From the NCBI RefSeq assembly GCF_000819445.1, contig NZ_CP005286.1, forward strand, positions 1,240,001 to 1,304,000: a stretch of 64,000 bases of DNA, given 5' to 3'. Positions 45,965-50,909 of this stretch are shown piece after piece. The position numbers and the translations under genes were made by a program. The notes beneath the pieces are model-generated. The model was not told the origin of the DNA, ran no database searches, and saw only the letters and a program-made list of their open reading frames with translations. The stretch's first letter is position 1. Every line of letters begins with the position of its first letter. This DNA is from Corynebacterium humireducens NBRC 106098 = DSM 45392 (GTDB lineage Bacteria; Actinomycetota; Actinomycetes; Mycobacteriales; Mycobacteriaceae).

Positions 45965-46624
45965 ATGACCACACCCGGAACCCACCAGTTCGACGTCCTC
46001 GACTCGGAGCTCCTGCACGAGTCGCCCATCCTCGCCCTGCGCCGCGACACCCTCGCGATGCCTGGCGGAGGCACCGGGAGGCGGGAGATCGTCGAGCATT
46101 TCGGGGCCGTGGCCGTCGTCGCCGAGCGGGACGGGGAGATCGCCCTGGTCCGCCAGTACCGCCACAGCGTGCAGGACCGCCTGTGGGAACTGCCCGCCGG
46201 CATCCTCGACATCGACGGCGAGGACGAGCACGTCACCGCCCGCCGCGAACTCGCCGAGGAGGCGGGCCTGGCCGCCGACCGGTGGGAGGTCCTCTGCGAC
46301 CTGGTGACCTCGCCCGGTTTCTGCGAGGAGACTGTCCGCGTCTACCTCGCCCGGGACCTGCACGAGGTCGACCGCGGCGAGGCGGAGCACGAGGAGGCCG
46401 ACATGACCTTCTCGTGGACGCCCCTGGAGGAGGCCCGCGCGATGGTGCTGCGCGGCGAGATCATCAACTCCATCGCCATCGCCGGCATCATGACGGCCGC
46501 CGAGGTCCTCGCCGGGCGGGGGGAGGCCCGGCCCGTCGACACGCCCAACCCGTGGCGGCCGCAGGCCCTGGCCGCGCGGCGTCGTGCAGCGGGCGTCGGA
46601 CCGGACCTGAAGAAGATGCCGTGA
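45965..46624 (+). CDS. Nudix hydrolase, ADP-ribose pyrophosphatase-like
   Basis: The 219-residue protein carries a Nudix box, [26 protein letters not shown], with the one-residue-longer spacing seen in ADP-ribose pyrophosphatases, and FSWTPLEEA downstream. It would hydrolyse ADP-ribose or a similar nucleotide. The ATG is seven bases after TAGATT, so it is probably leaderless. Its stop overlaps the xerD GTG. Confidence 0.85.
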
Positions 46625-47520
46625 GGGCCCGGGGCATCGCGGACACCTGGCTCGACCACCTCGCCGTGGAACGTGGCCTCTCCGAGAACACCCTCACCAA
46701 CTACCGCCGCGACCTCAACCGCTATCTCGACTGGCTCGAGGAGGCGGGGCGCACCGACCTGGCGGACGTCTCCACCACGGACGTGGAGGCCTACGTCGCC
46801 GACCTGCGGCGCTCCGGCCTGGCGGCGAGTTCCGCGGGCCGCGCCCTGGTGGTCGCCCGGGGGCTGCACAAGTTCGCCGTCCGCGAGGGCGTGCTCGGCG
46901 TCGACGTCGCCGCCGAGGTCTCACCCCCGAGCACCGGCCGCCACCTGCCCGACACCCTCTCCGTCGACGAGGTGGCCACGCTCATCGAGTCCGTGCCCAC
47001 CGATGACCTGGCCACCCCGCTGGACCTGCGCGACCGCGCGCTGCTGGAACTGCTCTACGGCACGGGGGCCCGCATCTCGGAGGTCACCGGGCTGCTTGTC
47101 GACGACGTCACCGACACCGACGGCATCCTGCGGATCTCCGGCAAGGGCGGCAAACAGCGGCTCGTCCCCGTGGGCTCCAAGGCACTCGAGGCGGTCGAGG
47201 CGTACCTCGTGCGCGCCCGCCCGGTGCTGGCGCAGGGCAAGTCGCACGCCCTGCTGCTCAACACCCGCGGGGGAGCCCTGTCGCGGCAGAGCGCGTGGGC
47301 GGTGCTGAAGAAGGCCGCCGAGCGGGCGGGGCTGGACATGGACATCTCCCCGCACACGCTGCGGCACTCCTACGCCACCCACCTGCTGGAGGGTGGGGCC
47401 GACGTCCGCGTCGTGCAGGAGCTGCTCGGCCACTCCTCCGTGACGACGACGCAGATCTACACCCACGTCACCGCGGAGAACCTCCGCCAGGTGTGGCGGG
47501 AGGCGCATCCGCGGGCCTGA
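46621..47520 (+). CDS. xerD: Site-specific tyrosine recombinase XerD
   Basis: The 299-residue recombinase resolves chromosome dimers at dif together with XerC. The catalytic residues are complete: Arg151, Lys175, His245, Arg248, His271 and Tyr280 (IYTH). The N-terminal core-binding domain spans about 1-95. The GTG at 46621 overlaps the Nudix stop. Its last 53 bases overlap the convergent ABC-F gene. No dif site was recognised in the window. Confidence 0.92.
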
Positions 47521-48958
47521 GCTCCAGGCGCGGCCAGTGGGCCGTGTCCGCCAGCAGCTGCCGGTCGTGCGTGACCAGGACGACCGCGGCCTCCGTCCCC
47601 TCCAGCGCCTGCGTCAGTTGGGTGACGGCGTTGATGGAGAGGTGGTTCGTGGGTTCGTCGAGAAGCAGGACGGACGGACCGGCGCCGAGCACGCGGGCGA
47701 TGTCGCGGCGTCGCTGCTGCCCCATGGACAGCGGCTGATCCGTGTCCGCGGACTCCTGGGGGAGGAATCCGAGGGCGGAGGGGTCGGGCACGTGGACCGT
47801 GCCGGTGGTGGGCGCGAGCCGGCCGGTGAGGATGTCGATGAGGGTCGACTTGCCGGCCCCGTTGGGGCCGGTGATCACCAGCCGGTCGCCGCCGCGGACA
47901 GCCAGGTCGACGGGGCCGCGGAGCCGTCCCTCCAGCGAGAGTCCCTCGGCACGCAGGTAGGTGCGCGTGGACTTCGCGTGGAGACGCGGGAAGGTGAGCA
48001 CCGGCGGTGGCGGCGGCAGGGTCACGGCGTGGGCCGCGAGTGCCTCCTGCCGACGCCGGACCGCCTGCACCACGCCGGGGGCGCGTGACTGGCGGGCGTG
48101 CTTGCCGGTTCCCTTCGGGGGACGCCAGCCGGTGCTCAGCCGGGACTGCGCCTGCTGCAGGTCGGACTGCAGCCGGGCCTGGCGGGCGGTCTGGGCGGCG
48201 TAGTCGTCCGCCCACGCCTGCTCGAGGGCGGCGCGTCCGGCCCGGTAGCCCTCGTAGCCGGTGCCCCACACACGCGGCAGGCCGTCGGGGGTGGGGTCGA
48301 GGTCGAGGACGGTGGTGGCCAGGTCGGCCAGCAGTGCCCTGTCATGGGTGACGACGAGCACCGAACCGGCGCGACCGCGGAGCTGTTCCGTGAGGAAGGC
48401 GAGTCCCGCGTGGTCGAGGTGGTTGGTGGGTTCGTCGAGGAGCAGGTGATCGTGGTGGCCGGCGAGCAGGCACGCCAGACGGACGCGGTAGCGCTGTCCG
48501 ACGGACAGGTCGGCGAGGGCCACCTCGTCCGGGAAGTCCGCGTCGAGGGACGCGAGGGCGGAGCGGACGCGGCGGTGGGCGTCCCAGGCGTCGAGACGCT
48601 CGGCCTCGGCGAGTGCCGCCTCGTACTCCCCGGGGTCGGACTCGATGGTGGGGAGGGCGGCGTCGAGACGCGCGAGGGCGAGTTCCGCCGGGCGGATGAT
48701 CTCGCGGACGGCGTCGCCGACGGTGCCGGAGACGTCCATCTGCTGTTCGGCGACCGCGAGGCTGCCGTGGCAGGTGACGTGTCCGGAGTCGGGGAGCAGG
48801 CGTCCGGTGAGGAGGTGGATGAGCGTGGTCTTGCCGCGGCCGTTCTCGCCGACGACGAAGAGGCGGTCACCCCGGGAGAGGGTGAACGAGAGGTCGGTGA
48901 ACACGGTGCGTGTGCCACGGGTGGCGGAGACTGATTCCGCGCGGAGATGAGCGGGCAT
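47468..48958 (-). CDS. ABC-F ribosome-associated ATPase, resistance-type
   Basis: The 496-residue soluble protein has two ABC ATPase domains without membrane segments: Walker [10 protein letters not shown] and GPNGAGKST, signatures LSVGQRYRV and LSMGQQRRR, and two Walker [11 protein letters not shown]. The inter-domain linker (about 235-320) is rich in Gln, Arg and Ala, as in ABC-F proteins that enter the ribosomal E site. Some give resistance to macrolides, lincosamides or pleuromutilins; others regulate translation. The ATG at 48958 fits family length; an open frame continues upstream but through the regulatory leader. Expression is probably controlled by the uORF and hairpins upstream. Confidence 0.85.
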
Positions 48959-48980
48959 CGGGGTGCTTTCTGTACGGGGA

Positions 48981-49048
48981 TGTGCAGGAACGACGAGGCA
49001 CACGCCGACGTCACGGCTGGGCCGGAGGGCGTGTGCGGGGGTGTTCCT
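48981..49048 (-). promoter_or_regulatory. Attenuator-like leader of the ABC-F gene
   Basis: On the minus strand GCACACGCC (49036-49028) pairs perfectly with GGCGTGTGC (49006-48998). Outer arms AGGAAC (49048-49043) and GTTCCT (48991-48986) can extend the stem and include the last bases of the uORF. The second arm can instead pair, through TGTGC, with GCACA at 48985-48981. These are mutually exclusive folds that a ribosome on the uORF could switch. No T run is present, so control may act on translation, or termination may be factor-dependent. Confidence 0.55.
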
Positions 49049-49067
49049 ACAGGAAGTACAGATGCAT
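49047..49067 (-). CDS. Leader peptide uORF, MHLYFL
   Basis: A six-codon ORF (Met-His-Leu-Tyr-Phe-Leu, then TAG) begins exactly seven bases after the TATTAT box of a good promoter, so it would be the leaderless 5' end of the ABC-F mRNA. Its length and aromatic/leucine composition resemble the MsrD leader peptide MYLIFM, where a macrolide-bound ribosome stalls and turns on an ABC-F gene. The stop overlaps the outer hairpin arm. Coding was inferred from position, not measured. Confidence 0.6.
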   Translation of the reverse strand: MHLYFL

Positions 49068-49074
49068 GACGCAG

Positions 49075-49103
49075 ATAATAAACGATTCAGCATGAGTTGT
49101 CTA
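49075..49103 (-). promoter_or_regulatory. Promoter of the uORF/ABC-F transcript
   Basis: The minus strand reads TAGACA (49103-49098), 17 bases, then TATTAT (49080-49075), which is one of the best sigma-A promoters in the window. Seven bases later comes the uORF ATG. Confidence 0.7.
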
Positions 49104-49227
49104 CGTCAAGTCCTTGGCATTGACTTTTCGACGTTGCGTCGTGTCGTCGAAACCCGCGGGAATCACGATGTACCCTGTGTGACAACGGCGTAATTAGCCT
49201 GTAGTCGATTCAGTCAAGGAAGAGGGT

Positions 49228-50109
49228 ATGACTGTGAGCGGAGAGGGACTGTCCCAGGAGCCCGGTGTCGAGGTCGGCCTGACCGGCCGCCCGGTGCGCG
49301 AGCTGCCGCAGCCTGCTCCCCTGGACCGGCACGGGCCCGCGACGATCATCTCGATGTGCAACCAGAAGGGCGGCGTCGGCAAGACGACGTCGACCATCAA
49401 CCTGGGCGCCTGCCTCGCGGAGATCGGCCGCAAGGTCCTCCTCGTCGACCTGGACCCGCAGGGCGCCCTCTCGGCGGGCCTCGGCGTCCCCCACGACGAG
49501 CTCGACATCACGGTCTACGACCTGCTGCTCGACAACCAGACCTCGATCCACTCGGCGATCCACCAGACGGCCGTGCCCGGCATGGACCTGGTGCCCGCCA
49601 ACATCGACCTCTCGGCGGCGGAGATCCAGCTCGTCAACGAGGTGGGCCGCGAGCAGACCCTGGCCCGTGCCCTGCGTCCGGTGATGAAGGAGTACGACTT
49701 CATCATCCTCGACTGCCAGCCCTCCCTCGGCCTGCTGACGGTCAACGCGCTGGCCTGCTCCCACGGGGTCATCATCCCGATGGAGTGCGAGTACTTCTCG
49801 CTGCGTGGCCTGGCGCTGCTCACCGACACGGTGGAGAAGGTCGCGGACCGTCTCAACTTCGACCTGGAGATCCTCGGCATCCTGGTCACCATGTTCGACC
49901 GGCGCACCTCCCACGCCCGCGAGGTCATGTCGCGCGTGGTGGAGGTGTTCGGTGACCGGGTCTTCGACTCGGTGATCACCCGCACGGTCCGGTTCCCGGA
50001 GACCTCCGTCGCCGGCGAGCCGATCATCACGTGGGCGCCTTCCTCCCAGGGGGCGGAGCAGTACCGCAACCTGGCCCTCGAGGTCCTGGAGCGGACCGCG
50101 CTCCGGTGA
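49228..50109 (+). CDS. pldP: Orphan ParA-family ATPase, PldP-like
   Basis: The 293-residue protein has a ParA/MinD Walker A (CNQKGGVGKTT, residues 44-54, with the signature lysine), LVDLDPQGAL and ILDCQPSLG. In C. glutamicum the ParA-like protein PldP is encoded just before scpA and influences division-site selection, and the same order is seen here. No parB follows, as expected for an orphan. The ATG follows AAGGAAGAGGG. A TAGCCT box at 49195-49200 is a possible -10. Confidence 0.85.
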   Translation: MTVSGEGLSQEPGVEVGLTGRPVRELPQPAPLDRHGPATIISMCNQKGGVGKTTSTINLGACLAEIGRKVLLVDLDPQGALSAGLGVPHDELDITVYDLLLDNQTSIHSAIHQTAVPGMDLVPANIDLSAAEIQLVNEVGREQTLARALRPVMKEYDFIILDCQPSLGLLTVNALACSHGVIIPMECEYFSLRGLALLTDTVEKVADRLNFDLEILGILVTMFDRRTSHAREVMSRVVEVFGDRVFDSVITRTVRFPETSVAGEPIITWAPSSQGAEQYRNLALEVLERTALR

Positions 50110-50909
50110 CGGGGGAGCAGGCGGAGGTCCCGGGGTTCCGGGTCGCGCTCACCAACTTCGAGGGGCCGTTTGACCTGCTGCTGCAGCTCATCGGCTCCCG
50201 GCGTCTCGACGTCACCGAGGTGGCCCTCTCCGCGGTGACCGACGAGTTCATCGCCTACACCCGCGCGCTGGGGGAGACCGCGGACCTCGACGAGACCACC
50301 GAGTTCCTGGTCGTCGCCGCCACCCTGCTGGACCTCAAGGCCGCCCGGCTCCTGCCGCGCGGCGACGTCGAGGATCTTGAGGACCTCGCCCTCCTGGAGA
50401 CCCGGGACCTGCTCTTCGCGCGCCTCCTCCAGTACCGGGCGTACAAGCAGGTGGCCGACCTGTTCGCCACCTGGCAGAAGAAGGCGCAGCGCCGCTATCC
50501 GCGGGCGGTGGGCATGGAGCCGCAGTTCGCGGACCTCATGCCGCCGGTGGTTCTGGGGCTCACGCCCGCCGGTTTCGCGGAGGTGGCCGCGGGGGTGTTC
50601 CGCCCCCGCCCGCCGGAGGAGGTGGGCACCGCACACCTGCACCAGGTGGCGGTGTCGGTGCCGGAGCAGGCGGGGCGCATCCTCGACACCCTGCGGCTCA
50701 TGGGGGCCGGGCACTGGCTGACCTTCCAGGCGCTGACCCGTGACTGCACGGTGTCCATGGAGGTGGTCGGCCGCTTCCTCGCCCTGCTGGAGCTCTACAA
50801 GGCGCAGGCCGTGGAGGCCATGCAGGAGGAGGCCCTGGGGGAGCTGTCGGTCAGCTGGACGGGCCTGGAGGTGGATCCGACGGTGGTGGCCGCGACCAAC
50901 TGGGACTAG
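50106..50909 (+). CDS. scpA: Segregation and condensation protein A
   Basis: The 267-residue kleisin bridges SMC heads together with ScpB. It has the N-terminal FRVALTNFEGPFDLLLQLI motif and a C-terminal winged-helix stretch. The GTG at 50106 overlaps the pldP stop (GTGA). scpB is not next to it but about 4.9 kb away, after an inserted biotin module; the last four bases overlap the convergent transporter gene. Confidence 0.92.
   Translation: MTGEQAEVPGFRVALTNFEGPFDLLLQLIGSRRLDVTEVALSAVTDEFIAYTRALGETADLDETTEFLVVAATLLDLKAARLLPRGDVEDLEDLALLETRDLLFARLLQYRAYKQVADLFATWQKKAQRRYPRAVGMEPQFADLMPPVVLGLTPAGFAEVAAGVFRPRPPEEVGTAHLHQVAVSVPEQAGRILDTLRLMGAGHWLTFQALTRDCTVSMEVVGRFLALLELYKAQAVEAMQEEALGELSVSWTGLEVDPTVVAATNWD

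Follow-up and report, generated by a model that had tools for sequence, protein, structure and literature searches.

Attenuation by a leader peptide ahead of ABC-F genes is already known, and the nearest described case is the streptococcal mefA/msrD operon, in which a hexapeptide uORF, MsrDL (MYLIFM), precedes the ABC-F gene msrD (PMC10314930). According to that report, the ribosome stalls at the MsrDL stop codon in the presence of erythromycin or azithromycin, resulting in the induction of msrD, and induction by erythromycin requires Leu3 and Ile4; msrDL is described there with a ribosome-binding site and as controlling an intrinsic terminator (PMC10314930). At ermC, a ribosome stalled on the ErmCL leader ORF is described as freeing a masked ribosome-binding site, while ErmDL stalls at Arg-Leu-Arg with erythromycin or telithromycin (PMC13410324).

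In the stretch of Corynebacterium humireducens DNA analyzed here (the window, 64,000 nucleotides), a six-codon uORF encoding MHLYFL stands before an ABC-F gene, in the manner of MsrDL and msrD. Leu3 and Phe5 are common to both peptides, and in both the stop codon follows directly after residue 6, whereas residue 4 is Tyr in MHLYFL and the critical Ile in MYLIFM. Unlike msrDL, the MHLYFL uORF is not preceded by a ribosome-binding site, and no terminator was found between positions 48900 and 49240. Because of Tyr4, the missing Shine-Dalgarno (SD) sequence, and the absence of a nearby terminator in that interval, we do not file MHLYFL as MsrDL; the likeness to the MsrD leader claimed in the original prediction thus stands for the hexapeptide length, Leu3, and Phe5 and fails for Ile4 and the terminator. 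The MHLYFL leader would work like MsrDL or ErmCL, yet it is not MsrDL. The ErmCL-ermC system differs in both peptide and gene and is not known to be leaderless. In mycobacterial polycysteine attenuators, a leaderless short uORF reportedly controls the downstream genes, as we propose here, although the signal is said to be cysteine and not a drug.

Closer in phylogeny, are5sc and tiaA of Streptomyces coelicolor are likewise actinomycete ABC-F genes with drug-stalled uORFs; these encode MLV and MVGDDDISG, have ribosome-binding sites, and, as far as described, stall ribosomes at the start codon in response to LSAP drugs but not to erythromycin (PMC12421871). A search of literature text, largely of papers available without subscription, returned no match to the exact leader peptides. 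We propose, with a probability of roughly 0.8, that the MHLYFL leader is a leaderless, drug-sensing leader-peptide attenuator controlling an ABC-F ribosome-protection gene. The sequence evidence is strong for the uORF, its conservation at the peptide level, its leaderless type of promoter spacing, its association with the gene, and the pairings.

Layout of the leader and its promoter

The promoter TAGACA-17-TATTAT of the original prediction is present, with the uORF ATG 7 nt after the -10 hexamer, and it is the sole promoter-like site in 48900-49240 (mean of 0.1 in shuffled sequences). The MHLYFL-stop ORF upstream of the ABC-F gene was confirmed as well, running from its ATG at 49067 to the TAG at 49049-49047, with 109 nt separating the uORF ATG from that of the ABC-F gene at 48958 (Table 1). 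The SD-like AGAAAG of the ABC-F gene recurs in all 7 compact loci. A scan of the window against Rfam at gathering scores gave rRNA matches only. The ABC-F frame also continues without a stop through 49068-49093, where another ATG (at 49093) precedes the -10 box, and this alternative start, lying where it does, would be missing from a transcript beginning at 49067. A gene caller could pick it, thereby hiding the leader.

Table 1. Features of the MHLYFL leader and its ABC-F gene (positions in the window)
Feature	Position	Strand	Basis or remark
-35-like hexamer TAGACA	49098..49103	-	Promoter scan; 17-nt spacer to -10
-10 hexamer TATTAT	49075..49080	-	7 nt before uORF ATG
Leaderless-type uORF ATGCATCTGTACTTCCTGTAG (MHLYFL-stop)	49047..49067	-	Sequence, peptide conservation, pairing
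Outer stem, 5' arm TCTGTAC (uORF codons 2-4)	49056..49062	-	Fold, arm-by-arm pair count
Middle stem, 5' arm GGAAC (from last base of uORF stop)	49043..49047	-	Fold, pair count
Nine-base inner stem, 5' arm GCACACGCC	49028..49036	-	Fold, arm-by-arm pair count
Nine-base inner stem, 3' arm GGCGTGTGC	48998..49006	-	Fold, arm-by-arm pair count
Middle stem, 3' arm GTTCC	48987..48991	-	Fold, arm-by-arm pair count
Outer stem, 3' arm GTACAGA (overlaps SD-like site)	48969..48975	-	Fold, arm-by-arm pair count
SD-like AGAAAG of ABC-F gene	48966..48971	-	Complementary to 16S rRNA 3' end CCTCCTTTCT
ABC-F ATPase gene, 496 codons then TGA	47471..48958	-	ORF, model and structure matches

In 18 loci chosen by the peptide pattern alone, without a promoter criterion, every ATG follows a TANNNT box, at a distance of 7 nt in 16 loci and of 6 nt in 2, the background frequency of such a box being 0.0021 per position. 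An SD-like core upstream of the uORF occurs in only 1 of the 67 loci of the wider family presented below and is absent from the other 66. On these grounds, the MHLYFL uORF is probably leaderless, i.e., translated from the 5'-terminal nucleotide of its mRNA. Leaderless mRNAs are reported to make up 33% (707 of 2,147) in Corynebacterium glutamicum, with AUG or GUG as the start codon (PMC3890552), in agreement with the ATG and GTG starts of the uORFs found here.

Attenuation could instead operate at transcription, through intrinsic or Rho termination, and not at the ribosome-binding site. This is the case for msrD, which uses a terminator (PMC10314930), and vmlR, vgaA, lmrC, and others have been described in these terms, with cplR being controlled at both levels. 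However, a simple scan of the interval 48900-49240 at the window locus revealed no intrinsic-terminator-like site between leader and gene, and the conserved pairing presented below reaches the SD region, leaving transcriptional control as a minor possibility. Control at the ribosome-binding site by a leaderless attenuator is the reading that we retain.

The ABC-F protein

The protein is a single chain with two ABC ATPase domains, as in EttA, VmlR, and MsrE, and ABC_tran matches it in 3 stretches. Among the 25 of 188 NCBIfam matches listed, the top model is the general ribosomal-protection ABC-F model NF000355 (271.7 bits, cutoff 380), followed by the TlrC/CarA/OleB/SrmB producer model NF000171 (253.1 bits, cutoff 800), then by the housekeeping EttA (~193 bits) and Uup (~191 bits) models and by CarA; the Msr, Sal, Vga, and Lsa models score below EttA and Uup, and none of these 25 reaches a resistance-family cutoff. 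The best matches among solved structures are the housekeeping proteins YheS and EttA (E about 1e-44), with VmlR (7e-41) and MsrE (1e-31) lower. The model and structure scores thus indicate an ABC-F protein whose nearest specific model is that of macrolide producers, below the resistance cutoffs of the matches listed. The gene product is likely a ribosome-protecting resistance ABC-F.

Conservation of the hexapeptide

A degenerate DNA pattern without any promoter condition located MHLYFL-stop in 16 of the 242 genus genomes searched (0 with the pattern reversed), and an ABC-F homologue lies downstream in 16 of 16. At the order level, the pattern was present in 3 of 397 genomes, the window's own included, and the other two matches also precede ABC-F genes. 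Since an ABC-F protein search in the genus, which matched 43 genomes, recovers all 16 of these as well, the MHLYFL set does not depend on the peptide pattern. Eighteen of these 43 genomes have a leader of the short type, namely, 16 with MHLYFL, 1 with MLLYFL, and 1 (G105) with a different peptide, VNYLFFVYWG. The residue changed in MLLYFL is at position 2, and in MsrDL it is the Ala mutant at this position that is reported to have retained induction best (PMC10314930). In a further protein-found set of 9 loci, in which leaders were read apart from L035-L039 (25 to 33% identity), all four relatives, a Corynebacterium MAG, C. pollutisoli, C. hylobatis, and C. lemuris, carry MHLYFL before ABC-F genes of 77 to 92% identity. 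In locus L055, an alternative start two codons earlier is possible, giving MPMHLYFL.

Across 17 genus loci (16 MHLYFL, 1 MLLYFL), all in genomes that the ABC-F protein search also finds, departures from the commonest codon were synonymous in 22 cases and nonsynonymous in 1, and all three stop codons are in use (TAG in 8, TAA in 7, and TGA in 2). Adding four loci from outside the genus (21 in total) brings the count to 27 versus 1, which is partly circular because it includes loci picked by their peptide. Peptide conservation before corynebacterial ABC-F orthologues, which had been proposed as a check, is thus borne out by the 16 of 16 genus matches and by the 22:1 ratio.

These counts also bear on whether the peptide matters at all, as the uORF could sense any block of translation at its start codon (by drugs of the lincosamide, streptogramin A, or pleuromutilin type), like the uORFs MIN, MRI, and MLV, in which case the sequence of the peptide would be unimportant. 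Such stalling at a uORF start codon is described for the LSAP-induced ARE5 ABC-F genes of Streptomyces (PMC12421871). A ribosome on the AUG would presumably cover nt 6 to 12 of the leader as well. The synonymous bias of the 17 genus loci nevertheless points to the nascent chain, as do the recurring Phe/Tyr-Leu-stop or RLR endings of the leaders, and we consider a sensor of this kind improbable. We keep to a leader whose nascent hexapeptide would itself arrest the ribosome.

Leader hairpin and pairing with the ribosome-binding region

For the 115-nt leader piece (49064-48950), the predicted folding energy is -45.2 kcal/mol (z, -6.1), a stability attained by 0 of 200 shuffles, and both its minimum free energy (MFE) and centroid structures are a single nested hairpin made of outer, middle, and inner stems. 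In the outer stem, uORF nt 6 to 12 (codons 2 to 4) pair with GTACAGA, which overlaps the SD-like AGAAAG. The nine-base perfect stem of the original prediction exists, and the hairpin arms extend into the uORF, as had been noted; the alternative pairing said to compete with the nine-base stem was not found in the window among the structures looked at (MFE, centroid, and ribosome-masked folds), the MFE and centroid showing no competing hairpin.

Stem pairs were tallied arm by arm with a script, a MAFFT alignment of the compact leaders having misplaced an inner-stem arm. In 7 close species, none of the 7 inner-stem pairs examined (of 9) is broken and 2 of them show double changes; the outer stem differs by a single G-U change, without double changes, and one middle-stem pair is broken. 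Pairing between uORF and SD region was compared with permuted combinations: matched duplexes came to -272.6 versus a permuted mean of -232.9 (sd, 9.2) in 21 loci and to -161.5 versus -133.1 (sd, 8.0) in the 12 less related loci, with 1 of 20,000 permutations as low as the matched duplexes in either set. The expected conservation of pairings in other corynebacteria thereby largely holds, with uORF and SD region covarying and the inner stem unbroken, the middle stem being the exception.

The longest complement between uORF and SD region is UCUGUAC:GUACAGA in the window, GUAUUUCCU:AGGAAAUAC in L040, L053, and L069, ACUUCCUCUAA:UUAGAGGAAGU in L051, ACUUCCUGU:ACAGGAAGU in L043, and UUCCUUUAAA:UUUAAAGGAA in L045, while in L041, L042, L044, L083, L094, and L095 it is just 6 to 7 nt long and lies at the first codons. 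The paired register thus varies among loci (nt 6 to 12, 9 to 17, or 11 to 21) with the peptide unchanged, so that the peptide is not explained by pairing alone. That the short ORF is a by-product and the conserved nucleotides only an RNA hairpin, as codon 5 being TTC in 21 of 21 loci and the pairing with the SD region might suggest, is very hard to reconcile with this shift of register, with the alternation of three stop codons, and with VHLYFL, which starts with GTG and retains the remaining residues of the peptide.

For the proposed arrest-peptide attenuator, a stalled ribosome was simulated by masking nt 1 to 33, the stretch expected to be covered when codon 6 occupies the P site. Predicted SD accessibility rose by at least 0.10 in 10 of 21 loci, the rise being matched by at most 2 of 30 shuffles in 8 of 21, and was flat or lower in the other 11, including 3 of the 7 compact loci; in 3 of 7 window-type loci, the SD site re-pairs under the mask. 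A gain in masked SD accessibility in every one of the 7 compact loci requires that the inner hairpin be forced to form, a constraint that presupposes an order of folding. In longer leaders, an ErmC-like rearrangement may be needed. Ribosome-mediated attenuation, as originally predicted, thus has the conserved peptide, the uORF:SD pairing, and the 18 of 18 promoter spacings in its favor, and against it that masking has the expected effect in only about half of the loci.

A wider family of leaderless-type uORFs

The family was assembled from 69 distinct genomes, comprising 43 from the genus (E <= 1e-60, of 242), 25 from the class (E <= 1e-80, of 394 genomes, G000 among them), G047, and G278. A short ORF 6 to 7 nt after a TANNNT box and within 500 nt before the ABC-F match is present in 67 of 69 genomes, or in 66 of 68 when G278, picked by its peptide pattern, is excluded; the two genomes without such a uORF are G143, an outlier at 35% identity, and G322. 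The spacing of 6 to 7 nt in all 67 is circular, being the selection rule itself, and its noncircular form is the 18 of 18 pattern-found loci. Applied to controls, the same rule matched 1 of the 21 ABC-F paralogues and 23 of the 706 control windows (500 nt each), which contain the uORF under study as their single short Phe-Leu match.

The 67 loci encode 34 distinct leader peptides. Thirty-six uORFs are short (6 to 8 residues, one of 10), and 35 of them end in Phe-Leu or Tyr-Leu, with MHLYFL occurring 20 times, followed by MLLYFL, VHLPLYL, VQYLFFL, MQYLYFL, VHYYFL, and others. The remaining 31 are longer and contain Arg (MYSGIASMKLRSAR, MHTGVASMRLRIRR, MTDMGFSIARIWGHR, and others); 25 loci fit a loose script rule for RLR (R or K, one to three residues, R or K), not all being strict RxR, and 6 further leaders ending in Arg were placed here on visual inspection. 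We considered an ACGGC stem near the stop as a family-wide element and rejected it, as it occurs in only 32 of 67 loci and is missing from those of the window type.

A second class of leaderless-type leaders, many with KLR or RLR, belongs to a sister ABC-F clade (L004-L009, L070-L080, L084-L091, L093, L100, L102, L106, L107, and L111). Many of these leaders have Arg directly before the stop, and TGACGGC is often found at the stop codon.

In the ABC-F tree (50 family rows and 2 paralogues), the 16 Arg-type rows fall into one group (99/98), and the leader-type labels require 2 changes versus 15.6 in shuffles. The tree input was 61 loci (57 of the 69 genomes and 4 plasmid-collection loci), from which the extraction rule dropped 11; L099 has an extreme branch and was probably misread, L045 is long, and L057 and L120 are partial. 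Related arrangements are found across many Actinomycetes. We see about even odds that they form a family of leaderless arrest peptides that sense macrolides throughout the Actinomycetes, in which start codon, nascent-chain drug sensor, and the element masking the ribosome-binding site would share approximately the first 21 nt of the mRNA. The two arrest-peptide classes, short Phe/Tyr-Leu-stop and Arg type, may then be separated by one switch that follows ABC-F phylogeny.

Mobility and genomic neighborhood

Thirteen plasmid-collection records contain an ABC-F homologue at E <= 1e-60, and among the 6 that were read, L116, L117, L120, and L121 fit the leaderless rule, while L118 and L119 fall outside it, their TANNNT box lying at 8 nt. 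A VHLYFL leader, the ABC-F gene, and a following MFS transporter gene are found on Gordonia and Microbacterium plasmids (L116:2462-5364, L117:2462-5364); VHLYFL also precedes the ABC-F gene on a chromosome-sized Nonomuraea record, and a Streptomyces record has the leader MSFCMKPWFCR. The two records with the box at 8 nt are from Prescottella equi and carry the leader MYASTGFMKPWSLR; in one of them (L118:2483-6117), erm(46) starts ~1.2 kb after the ABC-F gene. In L118, the leaderless rule also matches a 14-codon ORF (VGNTNIAVTEFRRF) before erm(46).

In the window, the minus-strand ABC-F gene is flanked by plus-strand ORFs (46600-50909), one of them ParA-like by NCBIfam. The other plus-strand neighbors are presumably a tyrosine-recombinase-like ORF on one side and an ScpA-like gene beside the ParA-like one.

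Proposed mechanism and significance

We propose a model in which the first transcribed base would be the A of the uORF ATG, leaving ribosomes to initiate on a bare 5' AUG. Without drug, the hexapeptide would be completed at once and the leader would form one long hairpin, in which the uORF codons are paired with bases that overlap the ABC-F SD, keeping translation low. With a drug bound in the exit tunnel, most likely a macrolide, the nascent MHLYFL would block termination at the stop codon, and the stalled ribosome, covering approximately the first 33 nt, would open the outer and middle stems, exposing the SD and allowing the ABC-F protein to be made. Of this scheme, we infer where transcription starts, that the ribosome stalls, which drug acts, and that the gene is induced. 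The inducer is probably a macrolide, an assignment based on the likeness to MsrDL, on the ErmDL type of Arg-Leu-Arg arrest in leaders of the sister-clade type, and on the nearest specific ABC-F model. Altogether, our analysis supports the interpretation given in the original prediction.

If this model is true, inducible drug sensing in actinomycetes can make use of 5'-AUG initiation without a ribosome-binding site, and uORF finders based on SD sequences may miss such leaders; uORF4u, for instance, is described as including an SD search for prokaryotes (PMC10219788). The 34 distinct peptides constitute natural candidate arrest peptides for comparing how the drug-bound ribosome recognizes them. 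Moreover, the model, if true, suggests that a little-characterized ABC-F clade, plasmid-borne too and once found near erm(46), is inducible.
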